Positions 25,644-50,615 of a stretch of DNA of 64,000 nucleotides are shown piece after piece. Origin of the DNA: Burkholderiales bacterium. GTDB taxonomy: Bacteria > Pseudomonadota > Gammaproteobacteria > Burkholderiales > Nitrosomonadaceae. Location of the stretch: contig JABTUQ010000009.1 of the NCBI GenBank assembly GCA_015075225.1, forward strand, positions 20,032 through 84,031. The letters run 5' to 3'. The position numbers were made by a program, and so were the translations under genes. Under the pieces are notes generated by a model, which was not told the origin of the DNA, searched no databases, and saw nothing but the letters and a program-made list of their open reading frames with translations. How positions within the stretch are numbered: position 1 is the first letter of the stretch; each line of letters starts with the position of its first letter.

Positions 25644-26582
25644 TCAGCTTTTGGATGAAGTGTTGCGGTGGGGGTATTCGAGGGCAACAAGATCAGCTGC
25701 TTCATTGAGCAAAAACTGCTTGAATACGCTGGAAATGTTGGAGAGACGCCTGTTTTTCTGGTGGACAACATTCCAGTGCCTGGTAATCGGAAGCCCTTGT
25801 ATATCCAGTATTACTAACCGGCCTGCTTCAAGCTCCAGTCTGATAGTATGCAGCGACATAATGCCCAGTCCCATACCGGCTTGAATGGCTTGTTTTATAG
25901 CCTCTGCAGTATCCGCTTCCATCCCTTTCTGAATACTGATTTTTTCTTGTGCAAAAAAACGTTCCATTGCGTTTCTTGTACCGGAGCCCGGCTCACGAAC
26001 GAGAAAAATTTCCTGCTCCAATCGTTTGACTGGGATTTGTTTTTGCTTGCAGAGTGGGTGATCTGGCGGAGCAATAATCACGAGCGGGTTTTCCATAAAC
26101 GATTCGGAAGTAATATCCAATCCTTCCGGTGGCTGGCCCATGATTGCCATATCCATATTGTTGTCAGATAGTTGTTTGAGTACGTTCTCACGATTGGAAA
26201 CATGCAGGCTGATAGTAATGCCGGGATAGCGCTGGCAGAAGCTGGCCAGTAGGTTGGGCACGAAATAGTTGGCTGTGCTGACGACGGCGATGCTTAACTT
26301 GCCACGTTCTAATCCTTTCAGTTCATCAAGAGCGAGCTCCATATCAGCCAGTTGCCGGGTAATAGCGCGGCTATAGTGAAATAACTCCTTGCCGGCTTCA
26401 GTCAGATGAATGCGTTTGCCTATTTGTTCAAACAGGGGAAGAGCGACCATTTCCTCAAGTCGTTTGATCTGAATAGAAACGGCTGGTTGAGTCAAATGCA
26501 GCTCCTCAGCTGCATGAGTGAAATTAAGGAGACGTGCAACTGACTCAAAAATCTTTAGTTGGTGCAGGGTGATATGTAGCAT
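25644..26582 (-). CDS. cbbR: CbbR, LysR-type regulator of the cbb operon
   Basis: A 312-residue LysR-type protein. Residues 4-62 carry the helix-turn-helix (LHQLKIFESVARLLNFTHAA, LTQPAVSIQIKRLEE), followed by the two-lobed effector domain (LSIAVVSTANYFVPNLL, LVREPGSGTRNAMERF, AGMGLGIMSL). Such regulators respond to Calvin cycle intermediates or reductant. The ATG at 26582 fits the family N-terminus; a TTG at 26612 in the same frame is the alternative. It is divergent from cbbL, the classic arrangement. Confidence 0.94.
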   Translation of the reverse strand: MLHITLHQLKIFESVARLLNFTHAAEELHLTQPAVSIQIKRLEEMVALPLFEQIGKRIHLTEAGKELFHYSRAITRQLADMELALDELKGLERGKLSIAVVSTANYFVPNLLASFCQRYPGITISLHVSNRENVLKQLSDNNMDMAIMGQPPEGLDITSESFMENPLVIIAPPDHPLCKQKQIPVKRLEQEIFLVREPGSGTRNAMERFFAQEKISIQKGMEADTAEAIKQAIQAGMGLGIMSLHTIRLELEAGRLVILDIQGLPITRHWNVVHQKNRRLSNISSVFKQFLLNEAADLVALEYPHRNTSSKS

Positions 26583-26652
26583 AACGGGGCAGAAAGCATG
26601 ATTAGCAGACAAGTATAAATAAAATTATATGATAACCATTACAATTATTAAT

Positions 26653-26770: not shown

Positions 26771-28171
26771 ATGGCTGTTAAAACTTATAACGCTGGTGTC
26801 AAGGAATACCGGCAAACTTACTGGACACCCGAATATGCGCCACTGGATACAGATATTCTGGCTTGCTTCAAAATCACACCACAACCCGGCGTGGATCGTG
26901 AGGAAGCAGCAGCTGCTGTTGCGGCAGAATCCTCAACCGGAACCTGGACCACGGTATGGACTGATTTGCTGACCGACCTGGATTATTACAAAGGCCGTGC
27001 CTATCGCATTGAAGACGTGCCCGGTGACGATACCTGTTTCTATGCATTTATTGCGTACCCGATCGATCTGTTCGAAGAAGGATCCGTCGTCAACGTGTTT
27101 ACCTCCCTCGTTGGTAACGTATTTGGCTTCAAGGCGATTCGTGGGCTACGTTTGGAAGACGTGCGCTTCCCGATCGCTTATGTCAAAACTTGCGACGGTC
27201 CTCCACTCACGGTATTCAAGTTGAACAGGTATGCTCAGCCAAATATGGTCGCGCGTTGCTTCAGTTGCACGATCAAGCCGGTAGGTTTGTCCGCCAAAAA
27301 CTATGGTCGTGCTGTCTGCCCGAATGTCTGCCGCGACCGAGTCGGATTAACGAAGATGGTGACGTCAACAGCCAACCGTTCATGCGCTGGCGCCAACGTT
27401 TCGATTTCGTTATGGAAGCCATTCACAAGGCGGAACACAAGCTGTGGTGGTATGGGGTCCTCTGAACGTAACTGCCAACTCCGGAAGAAATGTACAAACG
27501 CTGAATACGCCAAAGAAATCAGCGCACCGATCATTATGCGACTACATTACCGGCGGTTTCTGTGTAACACAGGTTTGGCAAACTGGTGCCATGACAATGG
27601 CACTTTTCTGCATTCTGCCGTGCAATGCGCGGTGATCGACAAATCCCACATCATGGTATTCACTTCCGTGTGCTGGCCAGGTTCTGCGTCTGTCAGTGGT
27701 GATCACCATTCAGGTACCATTGTCAGTAAATTGGAAGGCGATCGCGGTGCAACGCTGGGCTGGATTGATTTGATGCGTGATAGCTTCATCAAGGAAGATC
27801 GCAGCCGCGGCATTATGTTCGATCAAGACTGGGGTTCCATGCCTGGCGTATTCCCGGTGGCTTCAGGTGGTATTCACGTTTGGCATATGCCGGCGCTGGT
27901 AGCCATTTTTGGTGACGATGCTTGCTTGCAGTTTGGTGGCGGTACCTTGGGCCATCCATGGGGTAATGCTGCCGGTGCTGCTGCTAACCGTGTGGCACTC
28001 GAAGCTTGCGTGGAAGCGCGTAACCGTGGTGTAGCTATCGAGAAAGAAGGCAAGGCCATTCTTACAGATGCAGCTAAAAACAGTCCTGAACTCAAGATTG
28101 CCATGGAAACATGGAAAGAAATCAAGTTTGAGTTCGATACAGTAGACAAACTGGACGTAGCTCACAAGTAA
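26771..28171 (+). CDS. cbbL: RuBisCO large subunit, form IA, with a heavily damaged central segment
   Basis: Starts at the ATG after AAGGAGA. Residues 1-140 ([34 protein letters not shown]) and the C-terminal half from [18 protein letters not shown] onward are perfect form IA RuBisCO. Between about 27195 and 27750 the frame stays open but the product is garbled: the expected GIQVERD, the KDDEN metal/carbamate loop and HIHRAMH are lost or shifted, and pieces of the true sequence ([27 protein letters not shown]) appear in other frames. SCTIKP retains the first active-site lysine; [10 protein letters not shown] follows it with a residue missing. The indels add up to no net shift. As read the protein cannot be active; see findings for error versus decay. 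Confidence 0.93.
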
Positions 28172-28238: not shown

Positions 28239-28595
28239 ATGTCAGAAGTCATTGATTATAGAAGCCGTTTGTCTGATCCAGCCAGCCGTAAGTTTGAAAC
28301 CTTTTCCTACCTTCCGTCATTGGACAAGGATCAAATCAGAAAGCAGGTTGAATATGTTGTCAACAAGGGGTGGAATCCGGCTATTGAACATACCGAACCC
28401 GAGTTTTTGATGAGCAACTATTGGTATATGTGGAAGTTGCCCATGTTTGGTGAAACCGATGTGGAACGCATCCTTGCGGAAGCTGAAGCTTGCCATAAAG
28501 CTAACCCGAACAATCATGTACGTTTAATTGGTTATAACAATTTCAATCAGAGCCAGGGAACAGCGATGGTGATCTATCGCGGAAAAACGGTCTGA
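28239..28595 (+). CDS. cbbS: RuBisCO small subunit, form IA
   Basis: A 118-residue small subunit with [43 protein letters not shown] and [20 protein letters not shown], all typical of green-type form IA. It caps the L8S8 holoenzyme. It starts 67 bases after cbbL with GGAG upstream. Unlike cbbL it is intact. Confidence 0.97.
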
Positions 28596-28671: not shown

Positions 28672-28710
28672 TGCCTAATAACCTAAACGCGTTTGAATAC
28701 TGGAGAAAAA

Positions 28711-29514
28711 ATGAGCGACGTTATCAAGCAACATTTCGTTAAGAATGAGCCATATTACCGTCCGGTTATGGATGAAGTGGCGCTGTACGAAGCAGCCTAT
28801 TCCGTACGTATGCCTATGATGCTGAAGGGCCCAACGGGATGCGGAAAAACCCGTTTTGTAGAATACATGGCATGGAAGCTGGGTAAGCCGTTGATTACTG
28901 TGGCATGTAATGAGGATATGACAGCTTCTGACCTGGTTGGGCGCTTCCTGCTTGATGCACAAGGTACGCGCTGGCAGGATGGTCCGCTGACTACTGCGGC
29001 GCGTTACGGAGCGATCTGCTATCTGGATGAAGTGGTCGAGGCAAGACAGGATACAACGGTTGTGATTCACCCGTTGACCGATAACCGCAGGGTTCTGCCA
29101 CTCGAGAAAAAAGGTGAACTGGTTACAGCACATCCCGATTTTCAGCTTGTCATTTCGTACAACCCGGGTTATCAGAGTTTGATGAAAGATCTGAAACAAT
29201 CAACCAAGCAACGTTTTGGCGCACTGGATTTCAATTATCCCCAGCATGACATTGAAACTGAAATCGTTTCGCATGAAACCGGAGTGGATTCTGCAACGGC
29301 TGGGAAACTGGTTTCCATCGCTGAGCGTGCCCGTAATTTGAAGGGCCATGGGCTGGATGAAGGGATTTCAACACGTATGCTGATCTACGCTGGCAATCTG
29401 ATTGCCAAGGGCGTGAATGTTCATGCGGCTTGTCGTATGGCGCTGGTTCGTCCTATTACTGATGATCCGGATATGCGCGATGCACTTGATGCTGCTGTTA
29501 CAACGTTTTTCTGA
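28711..29514 (+). CDS. cbbQ: CbbQ, AAA+ RuBisCO activase subunit
   Basis: A 267-residue MoxR-type AAA+ ATPase. Walker A GPTGCGKT lies at residues 40-47, [10 protein letters not shown] is the Walker B region, and [12 protein letters not shown] carries the sensor/pore segment. CbbQ hexamers with CbbO remove inhibitory sugar phosphates from form I RuBisCO. The ATG at 28711 follows GGAGA; an earlier in-frame codon at 28693 has no ribosome binding site. cbbO follows 41 bases on. Confidence 0.95.
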
Positions 29515-29555: not shown

Positions 29556-31883
29556 ATGAGTGTGAATCTGACAGATTACAGTGAGTTGCTGGAATCGCTA
29601 CAGCCCGAGTCCATGTCGTTGCTTGAAAATACCTGGCATGATGCGATCAGAACGCTTTCCCCACGCGGCATAGATAATTATCTAAAGGGTGCTTCAGCTT
29701 TGCAGGGGCTTGGGCGTGGTCGCTCTCTGGTTGATGCCTGGATCAATGAAATTCCTCTGGTAGCAAAGGAAGTGGGCGACGAAGTGATCAGCGACCTGGC
29801 AACCACCTGCCTGATGCTGGCATCCAAAACCTCCGGCGCAGTGATAGAAATGATCATAGCCACGTCAGCTACTGCTGCAGGCAGGTTGGGTGATCAGGAC
29901 TTGTTTCGTAATTATTTGCAGTTTCTGAGTACATTTACGGCACAGGCTCCGCGAGGGGTTCGCCCAATGCTGGATAAGCTTGATGTGCTGTTCAATCAGC
30001 TGACATTGGGTGGTTTACGGCGCTGGGCCTTGTGGGGCGCACATGCGCACAGAACTGATTATGAAGCACAACTTCAGTACTTCAGCCTGAGTTCCAAAGA
30101 ATCACTGGCCATGCTGCAGAAGGAACGCAAGGGCACGCTTTTCGTGGATATTCAGCGGCGTATCAACATTTATCTGCGTGCATTATGGGCGCGTGATTTC
30201 TACATGCGTCCGACATCGGGTGATTTTGAGAGCCGGGAAGGTTACCGTCCCTTTATCGAGGATTACATCATTCATCTGCCCGATGCTTATGATGCCCATG
30301 GTGAAGTTGCGGCCGGTGAAGTGTATCGTGCAGCAGCTGCCCATGCAGCAGCACACCTTGTGGAAACAAGATATCCGATTTCTGCCGAATCGTTGAATCC
30401 ACTGCAGATAGCGGTTATTTCCGTGATCGAGGATGCGCGGGTGGAGGCCTTGTCCATTCGCCGTTTTCCTGGTTTGCGGCATACCTGGTCAGTGTTGCAC
30501 ACAGCAACACCAGAAATGGATACGACGATAGGGAATTATCTTAACCGTCTGGCTCGTGCCTTGATTGATCCTGACTATGTGGATCCGGATGCATGGGTAA
30601 CTCAGGGGCGGCTGCTATTTGCCGGCGTGCAGGGTCGTCTGGATGATAACCAGATATGCTGGGATATTGGTGTGCAGCTTGCTCATGAAATCATGGCCAA
30701 GAAGATACCATTCAATCCAAGAACGGATGTGCTGACAGCTCCTTATCTTGACGATAACCGTTATTTCTGGGAGTTTGAGGAGTTCGATTTCGAGCGATCC
30801 ATTGCGGCGGGCTATGAGCCGCCCAAACAGGTGCGCAAGCATGTGAGCGTCATGGAGTTCATCAATGAACTCGATGTAGAGACAGCTGGGGACGATGCTC
30901 AAGAAATATGGGTGTTGGGAACAGAGTTATTTCCCTATGAGGATTTCGGGGTTTCCTACAATACTCTGGAGGGCAAGGAACCGGTTGCCTCGCCTATCCA
31001 CTATGCAGAGTGGGATTACCAGATTCAACTGGAACGCCCGGCATGGTCGACTGTTCAGGAGAAGCGTGCAAAACCCGGGGATATCCAGATCATCGATGAT
31101 ATTACCGCCCAGTACAAACGGGAAATTCATCGTATGAAATTTTTGCTGGATGCGATGCAGCCGCAAGGAGTGCAAAGAATCCGCAAACTGGAAGATGGCG
31201 ATGAAATTGATATCAACGCAGCAATTTCTTCGCTGACGGATATTCGTATGGGGCAGTATCCTGATCCACGTGTCATGATGCGGGCTGTGCGCAAGGTAAG
31301 GGATATATCGGTGCTGGTACTGCTGGATCTGTCCGAATCTACCAACAACAAGGTGAACGGACAGGATTTTACCGTGCTGGACCTGACCAGGCAGGCGACT
31401 GTGTTATTGGCAGATGCCATTAACCGGATAGGTGATCCTTTCGCGATACATGGCTTCTGCTCGGATGGGCGGCATGATGTCGAATATTACCGTTTCAAGG
31501 ATTTTGATCAGCCTTACAATGAAATTCCAAAAATGCGGCTCGCCGGTATGACAGGCCAATTGTCCACCCGCATGGGAGCAGCCGTACGCCACGCAAGCCA
31601 TTTTCTGAAACAGCAGCGCGCAGCCAAGAAGCTGTTGCTGGTGATAACCGATGGCGAACCGGCAGATGTGGATGTACGCGATCCACAGTATCTGCGCTTC
31701 GATACCAGGAAAGCGGTGGAAGAAGCAGGGCGTTCGGGCATACTAACCTACTGCATGAGCCTTGATCCGCGTGCAGACCAGTATGTATCCAGAATTTTTG
31801 GAATGCGGAATTATATGGTAGTGGATCACGTGATGCGATTGCCGGAGAAATTACCGCTGTTGTACGCCGGGCTGACTCGTTAA
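29556..31883 (+). CDS. cbbO: CbbO, von Willebrand A-domain RuBisCO activase adaptor
   Basis: A 775-residue protein. The N-terminal 500 residues are helical; from about residue 580 a von Willebrand factor A domain follows, with VLLDLSESTNNKV (MIDAS DxSxS motif), a GMTGQLSTRMGAAVRHA segment and LLLVITDGEPADVDV. In CbbQO-type activases the VWA domain contacts an acidic residue of RuBisCO and recruits CbbQ. Length and domain order match the family. cbbN follows 22 bases downstream. Confidence 0.94.
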   Translation: MSVNLTDYSELLESLQPESMSLLENTWHDAIRTLSPRGIDNYLKGASALQGLGRGRSLVDAWINEIPLVAKEVGDEVISDLATTCLMLASKTSGAVIEMIIATSATAAGRLGDQDLFRNYLQFLSTFTAQAPRGVRPMLDKLDVLFNQLTLGGLRRWALWGAHAHRTDYEAQLQYFSLSSKESLAMLQKERKGTLFVDIQRRINIYLRALWARDFYMRPTSGDFESREGYRPFIEDYIIHLPDAYDAHGEVAAGEVYRAAAAHAAAHLVETRYPISAESLNPLQIAVISVIEDARVEALSIRRFPGLRHTWSVLHTATPEMDTTIGNYLNRLARALIDPDYVDPDAWVTQGRLLFAGVQGRLDDNQICWDIGVQLAHEIMAKKIPFNPRTDVLTAPYLDDNRYFWEFEEFDFERSIAAGYEPPKQVRKHVSVMEFINELDVETAGDDAQEIWVLGTELFPYEDFGVSYNTLEGKEPVASPIHYAEWDYQIQLERPAWSTVQEKRAKPGDIQIIDDITAQYKREIHRMKFLLDAMQPQGVQRIRKLEDGDEIDINAAISSLTDIRMGQYPDPRVMMRAVRKVRDISVLVLLDLSESTNNKVNGQDFTVLDLTRQATVLLADAINRIGDPFAIHGFCSDGRHDVEYYRFKDFDQPYNEIPKMRLAGMTGQLSTRMGAAVRHASHFLKQQRAAKKLLLVITDGEPADVDVRDPQYLRFDTRKAVEEAGRSGILTYCMSLDPRADQYVSRIFGMRNYMVVDHVMRLPEKLPLLYAGLTR

Positions 31884-35363: not shown

Positions 35364-36325
35364 CTAGTAATTCCTCGTAATTGCAAACTCTGCCAATTCT
35401 AGCAAACATTGTTTATAGGTAGAATCGCGGATTGCAGCTATGGCGGAGATGGCCGTGTCGGCTTCTTTCCGCGCATTGTTTTGCGTAATCCAGTGCACCA
35501 CTTTCCTGAATGATTTTGAGTATGGGTTCAAACCCATCCTTGCCGCCTGTTTCAATGGCGTGGCGAACGATATTGATTTGTGCGGATGCCTGAACGCATG
35601 GCAAATATCAATGGCAGTGGGTTTCCTTCTGCCAGATCGTCACCCAGGTTTTTACCGGTATCCTGATCATTCCCGGAGTAATCCAGCAGATCATCCACTA
35701 GCTGGAACGCTGTACCCAGGTGCATGCCATAAGCGGCCAGTGCTTCTTCCTCATCCGGGGTAGCCCCTCCCAGTATTGCGCCGAGTCGGGCAGCAGCTTC
35801 AAAAAGCTTGGCGGTTTTATAGCGGATGACTTGCAGATAGTTTTCTTCTTCCACATCCGGATCACGGCAGTTGAGCAGCTGCAACACTTCTCCTTCGGCG
35901 ATGGTATTGGTTGCATCAGCTAGCACTTCCATGATCCGCATGTTACCCACTTCCACCATCATCTGAAAAGCACGCGAATAGAGAAAATCACCTACCAGAA
36001 CGCTCGCAGCGTTACCAAATATTGCATTGGCAGTGGCCTGATTGCGGCGTAATTCTGATTCATCCACAACATCATCATGCAAAAGAGTAGCCGTGTGAAT
36101 AAATTCAACGACAGCAGCGAGATTGTGGTGAAACGAGCCTTTGTAGTCGAACAATCCTGCAGCCAGGATGACCAATGCCGGTCGCAGTCTTTTACCGCCG
36201 CTCTGAATGATGTATTCGCTAACCTGCCGGACTAGTGCAACCTGAGAATGAAGTTTTTGCTGGATAACGTTATCAACTTCGCCCATATCCTTGGCGATAA
36301 CGTTTCTGATTGACTCGATTGACAC
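35364..36325 (-). pseudogene. ispB: polyprenyl diphosphate synthase, with clustered frameshifts near the 3' end
   Basis: Starts with GTG at 36325 after GGGAG. The first 240 residues are a clean long-chain polyprenyl (octaprenyl-type) synthase: GGKRLRPALVIL, the first aspartate motif LLHDDVVDESELRR, and the second motif FQLVDDLLDYSGND. After LGDDLAEGNPLPLIFAMRSG the frame breaks: INIVRHAIETGGKDGFEPIL continues in a second frame and KEADTAISAIAAIRDSTYKQ in a third, ending at 35364. One codon also seems to be missing in EGNPLPL. The enzyme makes the quinone side chain and is essential, so two frameshifts within about 150 bases suggest error or very recent damage. Confidence 0.88.
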
Positions 36326-42473: not shown

Positions 42474-43359
42474 GGGTTTGTTCTCAATCATGCGAATAGC
42501 TGTATGCCATATGTAATTGACGCCGAATAACTCGTTCACGGTCAATGACATGGCGAGGGCTGTTCATAGTGGATGAATTATATCATATCCTGACTTTTGC
42601 GCAGGAGTCAGGATGGACCGGACGATGTTACGAGATGACCAGTGGGCACGCATTGAGCAGCTATTGCCGGGCAAGAAGGGCGATCCGGCTGTACGGCGAA
42701 GGACAACCGACGCTTTGTCGAGCCGTTCTCTGATCACGCGTACCGGCAGTCCGTGGCGTGACCTGCCCGAAGAGCTTGGTATTGGCATCGGATTCTCGTC
42801 CGCTTCGCGCTGGCGCGAGAAAGTGTCTGGGAGCGTGGCAACAGCACTGCGTAAGGCCGCTACGGAGCATTTGTTCATTGACTCGACCATCGTGCGCGCC
42901 CACCAGCACCTCCGCTGGCGCCTGCAAGCAGGCCAACAGGAATTGGTCGTTCACGGGCGGACTGACCACCAAACTGCATGTCGCCGTGGATGCCCGGCAA
43001 TCCGCTGCGGATAATCCTCCCGGTCAGGCCAGATTGCCGATATCGAACAAGCGACCGCACTGATCAAGGATCAGCCCGTCGAATCTGTTGTGGCCGACAA
43101 GGGTGACGACCCGGATGCCTTCGTCACCGCGATTACAAACCAAGGCAGTCAGGCGGTCATCCCGCCACGCCCAACAGACTAACCCGCGCACGTTCGACCG
43201 CCACATCTACAAGAGCCGCAATCTGATCGAGCGTTTCTTCGCACGTATCAAGCAATTCAGACGCATCGCCACGCGCTACGACAAACTCGCACAATCCTTC
43301 CTGTCGTTCGTCCAGCTAGCTTGCGCTATCGCCTGGTTGACTTGATTGAGAACACACCC
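42474..43359. mobile_element. IS5-family (IS427-like) insertion sequence, 886 bp
   Basis: Ends are GGGTTTGTTCTCAATCA on the left and TGATTGAGAACACACCC on the right, matching at 16 of 17 positions as terminal inverted repeats. TA flanks both sides (42472-42473 and 43360-43361), the target duplication expected for the IS427 group. The enclosed transposase is frameshifted, so the copy is probably immobile unless helped in trans. Confidence 0.85.
42613..43345 (+). pseudogene. IS5-family transposase, broken
   Basis: The N-terminal part, MLRDDQWARIEQLLPGKKGD to TGSPWRDLPEELG, and the catalytic FIDSTIVRAHQH (first aspartate) lie in one frame. A second frame then carries TGGLTTKLHVAVDARQ, a third the VVADKGDD region, and NLIERFFARIKQFRRIATRYDK with the final glutamate is in a fourth segment ending at 43345. 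At least two frameshifts separate them. Function lost; family assignment from the DDE pieces and the ends of the element. Confidence 0.85.
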
Positions 43360-43412
43360 TAACAGCTTCCGGATTATCTGTTTGCCAAAAAGAAGATAAA
43401 ACTACTCCGGCT

Positions 43413-43724
43413 ATGCAAGTAATTTCAGGGAAATATGAGGTTATTCAGATAATGAGGTCAGGAATGAAATTAATTATTGCCAAATATAAATCCCGTGAGA
43501 TGAGTTTTGGCCCACGAGAGGGGGAGCTTGTTCAAAATCCAAAAAAAGCCAAAGGAAGAGGATTAAACAGCATTCCGATCCGGTTTACCCTGATGTCTCT
43601 GTTTTTTACAGCCTTATGTACATTTCGCGTACTACCGTTAATGCGTTGCGTTAATTATTATTTACCAGGTATTATGCCTAGAAAAGCGATAGAAATCACC
43701 TTACTGGAGCAAAGAACCATCTGA
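43413..43724 (+). pseudogene. possible N-terminal fragment of the GGDEF-EAL receptor gene
   Basis: A frame of 103 codons between the IS5-type element and the IS630 relic. Its LNSIPIRFTLMSLFFTALCT stretch looks like the cytoplasmic lead and first membrane helix of a sensor protein, and it points toward the GGDEF-EAL gene whose 5' end is missing at 44707. I infer that it is the detached start of that gene, but the rest of the frame is not convincing. Confidence 0.3.
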
Positions 43725-43734
43725 GATCGTGCAG

Positions 43735-44690
43735 CCATAGCGCGGAGCGCAGGATGGTTGAGCGAGCGGGGATCATTTAGCCTGCGCTGCGGCAGCAGAA
43801 CCAGACGGTTGCCGCAGAGTGAACCACAGAATTTCTCGTGTCAGTAAATGGCGCAAACGGTATGCGTACGGTATTGTCGGACGTAAAGATGAGCGACGAC
43901 CCGGCAAACCTGAGGTATACATGGAAAAGCATTCTGGGACAAACTGTTATCCAGGTTGGATAGCGAACCACCCCAAGGCCTGCCGATGGGATTGTCCAAC
44001 TTTGGCAGCAACTGGGGTCAAGTACTCATGCAGTTTGGCGAGCATTAAAGAAAGAAGGATTTATCTGCATAAGAGCACGCAGCTGGCATCAGTACTGATC
44101 CTGAGTTTGCAGAGAAATCGGCAAATATTATCGGGCCATATTTGAATCCGCCTCTCAATGCGTTAGTTTTAAGCATTGATGAGAAACCCAGTATCCAGGC
44201 TTTGGAACGAGAAACTGGATATCGAAACGGCGACCAAAGCCAGTGCGCTTACAGTGCCACATACAGCGTATGGCACGTTCAATCTGTTTGCTGCATTAAA
44301 TGGCCACGTCACATCAAAGCTCAAACCACCAAACCAAAACACGAGAAGATTTTCAGAATTTTATGGATCTTGTAATACAGGATTTGCCTGAAACAAAGAG
44401 GTGCATGTTATTTTTGATAACTACTGCACACATAAAGGAATGATGAGTGGCTGAACAGATATTCAGGCTGAGTACTTTCACTTACGCCCACTTCAGCAAG
44501 CTGCTAATCAAATTGAATATGGTTCGGTATCTTATCCCGTAAGACATTAAAAGGAGCAAGCCTTGCAATGTCACAGAATTGAAAGAAGCATCGAAGCATT
44601 TATTACTCGTCACAACCAGAATGCTCAGCCATTTAAGTGGCGCCGTCCTGAAGAGTTGCAGTCAAACAACATACAATAGCTAATTTGCGC
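43735..44690 (+). pseudogene. relic of an IS630-type transposase
   Basis: Scattered fragments in several frames match the IS630 family: [21 protein letters not shown] near 44148-44210 with the DEKPSIQ hallmark, [15 protein letters not shown] near 44280, VHVIFDNYCTHK near 44400 (second aspartate), and NQNAQPFKWRRPEEL near 44605 at the C-terminus. Stops and frameshifts interrupt it throughout. The 3' edge at about 44690 abuts the GGDEF-EAL coding region. Confidence 0.7.
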
Positions 44691-44706
44691 AATTAGACAC
44701 TACTAT

Positions 44707-46377
44707 GTGCTTCCACTTATGGAATCGGGGACATCCAGTATATTGGTAATAGGGATGATCGCCCTGAGTATTCTGATCCCCGCAGCAATTACAAATTTTG
44801 CCGCCAATAAACTGACGGGCACTATTCGTGAACTCAATAAAAGTACGGATGCCATTGCACAAGGAGATTTTGACAAGCCGGTCAATGTTGACTGTGCCTG
44901 TGAAGTTGGCAATCTTGCCGATAGCTTCCGGGCGATGGTCAATCGTCTCAATTCCAATATCGTACGGATAAACACACTGGCGTACACAGATGCCGTGACG
45001 GGGTTGCCTAACCGGGCGGTGATCGGCCATGTTCTGGACCTTGCTGCGCAAATGCGGGGAAGAGCCGAGTGCAAGGGGGCGCTGATGTTTATTGATCTCG
45101 ATGGTTTCAAGCGTGTCAACGATACTCATGGCCATGAGGGCGGTGATGAATTGCTGCGCCAGGTAAGTAGCAGAATTATTGAAGGTGGCTTTAACCTGAC
45201 GCGTGATCAGATCGAGAATTGCACGACCGCATTTGGAGAATTACGTCAAACTTGCCCAGAGAAACTTGTTTTCGCCCGCTTTGCCGGAGATGAATTCGTG
45301 GTACTCATGCCGGGCGATCATTCCGTATCTTCACTTGCAGAGCACGCTAACGATATTCTCAAGGCAATAAACCGGCCATTCATGGTTTGTGGAAATGAAC
45401 TGCGGATCGGTGCCAGTATTGGTATTGCCCAGGTAACAACCGGCTCGGATGATCCCCGGCAGCTTCTGATCAATGCTGATATCGCCATGTATTCGGCCAA
45501 GGAATCAGGGAAAAACCAGTATCGTTTTTTTGATGAATCACTCAAGTTCATCGCCAACGAGCGTAATCAAATTGAAATTGATCTGCGCAAGGCAATCGAA
45601 CAGGAAAAATTGAGTCTGCATTATCAACCCAAGGTGAATACACAGACCCTGGAGATTACAGGTGTCGAAGCTCTGGTGCGCTGGGAGCATCCGGAAAATG
45701 GATGGATTCCACCGTCAAAATTTGTTGGAATTGCCGAGCAATGTGGTTTGATGCCTGCTCTGGGTACTTGCATTCTGCGTATGGCTGCCAAGCAAGCAGG
45801 TATATGGCGTGATTCGGGGATGATGGTGCCCATTGCCGTGAATGTTTCTGCTGTTCAGTTTGAACGACCCGACATAGCCAATGAAATACTTTCAACGCTT
45901 GAGCAGTTCAATGTAGGTCCCGGGTTGATCGATATCGAAATTACCGAATCCATGGTGATGTCTGATATCGAAGCCACTAAATTGCGCATGGAAATACTGC
46001 GGGAGGCGGGTGCATTGATTTCAATTGATGATTTTGGTACCGGTTATTCCAACTTGTACAAGCTCTCGTATTTACCTTTCAACGTTCTGAAGATTGATAA
46101 ATCTCTTGTGGATGATATAGATCACAACTCAAAATCGGAGGCCATAGTGACTGCAATCATTCAGATGGCTCATTCACTGGGATATCAGGTTGTCGCCGAG
46201 GGGGTTGAGATGCAGAAGCAATACGATTTTCTTAAGAAAAACGGGTGTGATCAGATTCAAGGTTATCTGTTTGGTTATCCGATGTCTGCCCAGGCACTGG
46301 TAGAGTGGATTGATCACCGTACTTCTTATCACGATTCCATGAGCAAACCGGTTAAAAGAATGACCAGGGTGGCTTGA
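44707..46377 (+). CDS. GGDEF-EAL cyclic-di-GMP protein with a truncated sensor region
   Basis: 556 codons from GTG at 44707 (ATG at 44719 is the alternative). One membrane helix (SILVIGMIALSILIPAAIT) is followed by a HAMP domain (ANKLTGTIRELNKSTDAIAQ), a GGDEF domain with FAGDEFVVL in place of GGDEF, and an EAL domain with GVEALVRWEHP, EITESM and DDFGTGYS, so the phosphodiesterase site looks intact. Diguanylate cyclase activity with AGDEF is possible but uncertain. The periplasmic sensor and first membrane helix are missing: upstream the IS630 relic begins and a stop lies at 44677. Whether it is expressed is unclear. Confidence 0.8.
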   Translation: MLPLMESGTSSILVIGMIALSILIPAAITNFAANKLTGTIRELNKSTDAIAQGDFDKPVNVDCACEVGNLADSFRAMVNRLNSNIVRINTLAYTDAVTGLPNRAVIGHVLDLAAQMRGRAECKGALMFIDLDGFKRVNDTHGHEGGDELLRQVSSRIIEGGFNLTRDQIENCTTAFGELRQTCPEKLVFARFAGDEFVVLMPGDHSVSSLAEHANDILKAINRPFMVCGNELRIGASIGIAQVTTGSDDPRQLLINADIAMYSAKESGKNQYRFFDESLKFIANERNQIEIDLRKAIEQEKLSLHYQPKVNTQTLEITGVEALVRWEHPENGWIPPSKFVGIAEQCGLMPALGTCILRMAAKQAGIWRDSGMMVPIAVNVSAVQFERPDIANEILSTLEQFNVGPGLIDIEITESMVMSDIEATKLRMEILREAGALISIDDFGTGYSNLYKLSYLPFNVLKIDKSLVDDIDHNSKSEAIVTAIIQMAHSLGYQVVAEGVEMQKQYDFLKKNGCDQIQGYLFGYPMSAQALVEWIDHRTSYHDSMSKPVKRMTRVA

Positions 46378-48973: not shown

Positions 48974-50615
48974 TCTGCGTTCTCCTCCAGTCGTGGCAAT
49001 GATTTAGTGACTGGTGTCTCCAGGACACTTCCAATATACGGCTGAGGTTGATGCAGACTGTTCGCTGTGGTTTCCATGAATTGCATTACCGGACCGGCCT
49101 GCATGGTCAGTACCAGCGTCATGCACAGCAGGGCGGCAACCGGTACGATTTCGATCAGCAATACTCTTGGCAGGGCGGTATCGATCGGCGGTGCCCAGAA
49201 CGTGCGGATGCTGAGCGGCTCATGGCGATCAGCGTGGCCAATCCAGAAAGGATGAGCAGTGCCAGCAGCCACCATGAGGTTGCGGGGATCAGGTGTGCCT
49301 GGCCGGATTCGTCCGGGTTGAATAAAGCATTGAGGATGACAAATTTGGCGATGAATCCTGACAGGGGCGGCAGACCAGCCAGCAGGATAGCGCAAGCGGC
49401 GAAACAAGTCCCGAGTACGGCGATTGTCCTTGGAATGGCAACGCCAACGATTTCTTCATCAGCCATTTCCTCATCATAATCACCAAAGGCTTCCATGGTA
49501 ACGGCCAGAACGTTGGACGCCATGTTTTGCCCTCTCTCCACCAGTTCGATCAGCATGAACAAGGCACTGATCGCCAGAGTGGAACTTGCCAGATAAAACA
49601 GTGCCCCAGCTGTCACTCCATTGTGTACCAGACCCAGGCTTGCCAGCAGCGTGCCGGAAGAGATCAGCACCGAAAAGCCGGCAAAGCGCCCCAGAGTCTG
49701 GGAAGCGAGCACACCTGCCGTACCAAAGCCTATGGTGGCCAAGCCGCTATAAAACAGGATTTCTAAGCTCATATTCTCTGGAAAATCGGGTGTATTCCCA
49801 AAGAAAAGCAGCGACAGGCGCAGTAACACGTAAATACCAACTTTGCTCATGATGGCAAAAATGGCTGCAGAGGGTGCCGGAGCTGCGGCATAGGTCGCCG
49901 GTAGCCAGAAATTGAGCGGCCACATGCCCGCCTTGATCAGGAAAGCCACGCCGAGAATGGCCGCACCAGATTCCAGCATGATCCGATTTGCTTCGCTGAT
50001 TTGTGGAATACGCAGCGCCAGATCAGCCATGTTGAGCGTGCCGGTTACGCCATAAATCAGAGCAACTCCGATCAGGAACAGCAGCGAAGCTACCAGATTG
50101 ATAGCGATGTAGTGTAACCCTGCTTTTACCCGCAGCAGTCCGGATCCATGCAATACCAGGCCGTAGGAGGCCGCCAGCATGATCTCGAAAAAAACGAACA
50201 GATTGAACAAATCTCCAGTCAGGAACGCACCGTTTAATCCCATCAATAGCAACAGGAACAATGTATGAAAATGCACACCAGCCTTGTGCCAGCGTGCCAG
50301 CGAGAACACCAGGGAGGGCAGGGCGAGCAGAGCAGTCAGCACCAGCATCATGGCCGATAAGCGATCGAGCACCAGATTGATGGCAAAAGGTGGAGGCCAG
50401 TTGCCAAGCAGATAAACCGCTATCCTGCCGGAATCTTCTTCCGTATGCGCCATGCGCAGCAGCATTACTGAAACTGCCAGCAACGCAACGGTCGCACAGA
50501 TGGATACCACGGCCTTCACCGATCGTGCGCGATCCTCAAAAAACAGGAGAACCACGCCGGCGATAAATGGAATCAGAACTGGCGCAATGATCAGGTGTTC
50601 TGGTACCAGATTCAT
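48970..50615 (-). CDS. mnhD: Mrp/Mnh antiporter subunit D, frameshifted near the C-terminus
   Basis: 486 codons are in frame from the ATG at 50615. The protein is a polytopic NuoN/MnhD-type antiporter with FLTGDLFNLFVFFEIMLAAS, LIKAGMWPLNFWLPATYAAA and SKVGIYVLLRL, including the lysine and glutamate of the proton path. At about 49208 the frame breaks after LIAMSR; the natural end, RTFWAPPIDTALPRVLLIE to TKSLPRLEENAE, follows in another frame to 48970. One base is missing. Overlaps mnhC by one base and mnhE by four. Confidence 0.88.

Follow-up and report, generated by a model that had tools for sequence, protein, structure and literature searches.

Does the damage in the middle of cbbL in this Nitrosomonas genome record a real loss of RuBisCO, or does it belong to the deposited sequence? 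The window, by which we mean the whole 64,000-nucleotide stretch analysed, spans positions 20032-84031 on contig C19 in a genome (G000; 2.48 Mb, 19 contigs, 95.5% complete) whose relatives are Nitrosomonas. It contains an ordinary cbb operon, in which a LysR-type regulator gene in the cbbR position (25644..26612, minus strand; frame intact relative to the syntenic genome G012) is followed on the plus strand by cbbL, encoding the form IA RuBisCO large subunit (26771..28171), cbbS, encoding the small subunit (28239..28595), cbbQ (28711..29514, the listed ORF starting at 28693) and cbbO (29556..31883), the last three of which are intact; the names of the cbbL neighbours are those that we take to apply. 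The 3' part of cbbL has its best genome match in N. marina Nm71, with 98% identity, and the PRK-family match in the genome is unbroken. Synteny with contig C13 of G012 is long, extending over window positions 13246-52152. We conclude with high confidence that the altered patch in cbbL is a fault of the deposited record rather than a biological feature, and that the form IA RuBisCO gene of the cell itself is most probably ordinary and intact.

The extent of the damage was established with a profile alignment of 21 of the 29 cbbL loci fetched from relatives (four of the other eight were incomplete, and four had no ATG 1422 nt upstream of the gene end). Relative to this profile the gene carries 24 indel events, all located between 27205 and 27706 and with none in the other ~900 nt, comprising 17 deletions (31 nt in all) and seven insertions (10 nt). 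Pairwise alignments extend the substitution lesions to about 27194 and 27747, giving a lesion patch at 27194..27747 on the plus strand. A first-pass annotation, made from the sequence alone, had described textbook form IA ends flanking damage at about 27195-27750, and both statements are borne out; columns that are invariant in the 21 relatives are mismatched at 17/277 positions in the patch and at 3/520 in the flanks, a distribution that does not suit general decay of the gene. The implied rates are ~6% of bases deleted, ~2% inserted and ~6% substituted, or ~14% error over ~550 bp. Correct fragments do occur in all three frames, as had been reported, with 211, 70 and 211 aligned patch bases at frame offsets 0, 1 and 2 respectively. 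The indels had been said to sum to zero, which is wrong; the net change is -21 nt, or 7 codons, and cbbL is 1401 nt long as assembled and 1422 nt in relatives. The main frame is regained after the patch and is indeed free of stops, yielding a 478-aa ORF in which the Pfam domains PF02788 and PF00016 both score above cut-off (144.6 and 191.9 bits). The intact metal-binding and active-site motifs of a form I large subunit are missing from the gene as assembled, in agreement with the original description, the D-D-E that follows the carbamylated lysine being lost and HIHRAMH reading HSAVQCA; these motif identities are the ones that we assume. No structural cause of the patch was seen, in that its fold is no better than those of shuffled sequences (z 0.66) and a repeat search in 26900-28000 gave just two short pairs, one direct and the other inverted.

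Damage of the same type is present in unrelated conserved genes of the assembly. Within the window, a polyprenyl synthase gene of family PF00348 that we take to be ispB-like (35367..36325, minus strand) has a second lesion patch at ~35466-35627, with clustered small deletions and a tail split over three frames, and a presumed Mnh/Nuo-like antiporter subunit gene (49015..50603, minus strand) has a single-base frameshift, a deletion, at about 49210. On contig C1, ispA (L229, about 246.3-246.9 kb) contains 11 frameshifts and is found by PF00348 as two pieces, each with a stop, and aroQ is split in two frames; there is one further lesion in a CusA-like gene on contig C17. The ispA patch spans ~557 bp, and both its length and its character are nearly those of the cbbL patch; the likeness in length may come from a fixed processing window or from gaps of similar size. 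Searches for further complete copies of the broken genes found none, PF00348 returning only ispA and ispB, and PF01220 only the split aroQ.

Where compared, the relatives are intact at these genes. A single unbroken match to aroQ was obtained in 20 of 21 relative genomes (one genome had no match at all), ispA is unbroken in 4/4 and ispB in 3/3 relatives aligned, and none of ten PF00348 places in five relatives contains a stop; for the antiporter and CusA-like genes, G012 was the only relative compared. A frameshift-aware protein-to-DNA alignment against G012, which covered the window and three of the 14 readable stretches of G000, revealed events past residue 23 in 12 of 65 genes (32 events). 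In the corresponding control, 0 of 83 gene comparisons at 16 other cbb loci had a frameshift or a stop codon beyond residue 23, in a narrower survey than our own, since it covered the cbb neighbourhood with four to eight genes each; all 22 control events fall within the first 23 residues, where reference ORFs over-extend upstream of the real starts. Five of the 12 flagged genes are clear cases (cbbL, ispB, the antiporter gene, aroQ and the CusA-like gene) and account for 17 of the 32 events. The first-pass annotation had favoured either poor base calls or a local mutational event, and it is the former that these lesions in unrelated single-copy genes, intact in relatives, support; a mutational event limited to cbbL is unnecessary and would leave the ispA, ispB and aroQ lesions unexplained.

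The other seven flagged genes are not pressed as lesions. ORFs that are short or weakly conserved make up four of them; in a fifth the events precede the likely start, in a sixth they are close to where a polyphosphate-kinase-like gene begins, and the seventh is a GGDEF/EAL-type gene (43464-46374) that is split here by ~1 kb, its start matching at 43464-43643 and the remainder from 44692, whereas the G012 copy is continuous and encodes 627 aa. A short ORF, presumably transposase-like, lies just upstream of the start of this gene at 43088-43345, and no direct repeats were found around the interruption in 43300-44900. The frameshift-aware alignment replaced an earlier and cruder tblastn survey of reading frames, which flagged 7/84 genes of this genome versus 3/87 in reverse, the latter all being short ORFs of 101-123 aa, and which did not flag cbbL itself. 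Two other approaches were set aside: a coding-potential Markov model with frame switching missed the cbbL patch under strict settings and flagged clusters throughout the sampled stretches under lax ones, and counts of non-triplet gaps in permissive DNA alignments were uninformative, with controls clustering gaps as often as our own genome.

Assembly error is favoured because it explains the damage to cbbL, ispA, ispB and aroQ at once. The products of the last three genes, FPP synthase, octaprenyl diphosphate synthase and dehydroquinase, should be needed for growth, and their joint real loss together with that of the sole RuBisCO is hardly possible. The sole RuBisCO large-subunit gene found adjoins intact cbbS, cbbQ, cbbO and cbbR genes. 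It had been proposed that the strain has lost RuBisCO from this operon and must hold another cbbL; the second part is unsupported, a search of the whole genome (95.5% complete) with PF00016 having found no second large-subunit gene and both of its rows lying in cbbL itself, and for the first we prefer sequence error.

The ~550 bp of cbbL would have been taken from reads that had been corrected poorly or not at all, probably at a place where accurate short-read coverage gave out and a single raw long read, or a few of them, filled in. Such a situation can arise, for example, when long reads are used as bridges in hybrid assembly, which is the most likely route, although both instrument and assembler are deduced indirectly. 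The order of the 19 contigs (2,483,958 bases in sum) is that of descending-size numbering with text-sorted names, which would suit an assembler whose contig numbers follow size, as we assume those of Unicycler do. Sections of the Unicycler paper state that, in the absence of a path through the graph, the long-read consensus itself becomes the bridge, and that one read can be enough for a bridge (PMC5481147). Deletions outnumber insertions in the cbbL patch, and they likewise exceed insertions in nanopore reads according to part of an error survey (PMC8486125). Frameshifts and false pseudogenes arising from long-read or hybrid assembly are also described, in one portion of a further report (PMC12007338).

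Some features of the patch fit error poorly. By chance alone, a main frame would seldom stay open across 24 indels: simulations put the probability at 0.0006-0.0044 when indels of these types are placed randomly, and at 0.0005-0.013 when native codon usage or the actual indel positions are used; cbbL is one patch among several, picked for being striking, and the similarly damaged ispA is not open. Homopolymer enrichment of deletions was not found, 10 of the 31 deleted bases lying in runs of at least two, versus 47% of patch columns. This is unlike the nanopore profile, in which over half of deletions are tied to homopolymers according to the same part of the error survey (PMC8486125), and the instrument is therefore left open. 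The inferred patch rate of ~14% exceeds the nanopore error rate of 5.7-8% given there (PMC8486125), and falls within the range of 5-15% quoted in a section of the Unicycler paper (PMC5481147).

Indels and substitutions confined between intact flanks, together with deletions not enriched in homopolymers, would also be expected of a real pseudogene, in which RuBisCO function was lost by a local burst of mutation, for example through error-prone repair synthesis, too recently for wider decay. We regard this as very improbable given that the same lesions affect the ispA, ispB and aroQ genes, which should be needed for growth and for which PF00348 and PF01220 searches found no second complete copy, and given that no other RuBisCO was found and the remaining operon is intact. 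Real and recent hypermutation confined to ~550 bp of the only RuBisCO gene, with the frame kept and with similar bursts in several housekeeping genes, is extremely unlikely.

A chimeric consensus, in which the conserved central part of cbbL blends reads from several strains or species, is similarly far-fetched. The genome may be a metagenome assembly, and a very conserved stretch precedes the patch (0.96 identity to loci L004-L006 at 27071-27120); merging real genes would preserve the frame, however, yet most of the 24 indels are not multiples of three, and 28 of the 492 aligned patch bases are absent from all 21 relatives used. Mixing could nevertheless have been the original cause of a gap. 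A selected, altered protein, rewritten in frame for a new role, is barely conceivable even with an open main frame that is improbable under random indels and two RuBisCO domains that still score in Pfam, for its metal and active-site motifs are lost, the 29 cbbL loci retrieved from relatives showed no sign of the same alteration (full alignment for 21) and ispA carries the same lesions without an open frame.

Base-level assembly error thus remains our reading of the patch. Taken at face value, the assembly would describe a Nitrosomonas without a working RuBisCO, and also without an intact FPP synthase, octaprenyl diphosphate synthase or type II dehydroquinase; wherever this genome seems to lack a gene, the reads should be consulted. 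No report of the cbbL patch was obvious among the titles listed for papers on Nitrosomonas, cbbL, pseudogenes and frameshifts.

The patch resembles the gene-fragmenting indel errors of long-read and hybrid assemblies in its clustered small indels within conserved single-copy genes, its clean flanks and the intact genes of relatives; it differs from them in being dense (~14% over ~550 bp), in its open main frame and in lacking homopolymer enrichment. In gene order and intact neighbours the locus is like the form IA cbbR/cbbLSQO operon of Nitrosomonas, with cbbL flanks close to those of N. marina Nm71 and other Nitrosomonas, and the stretch at 27.19-27.75 kb in cbbL is its sole departure from that operon.
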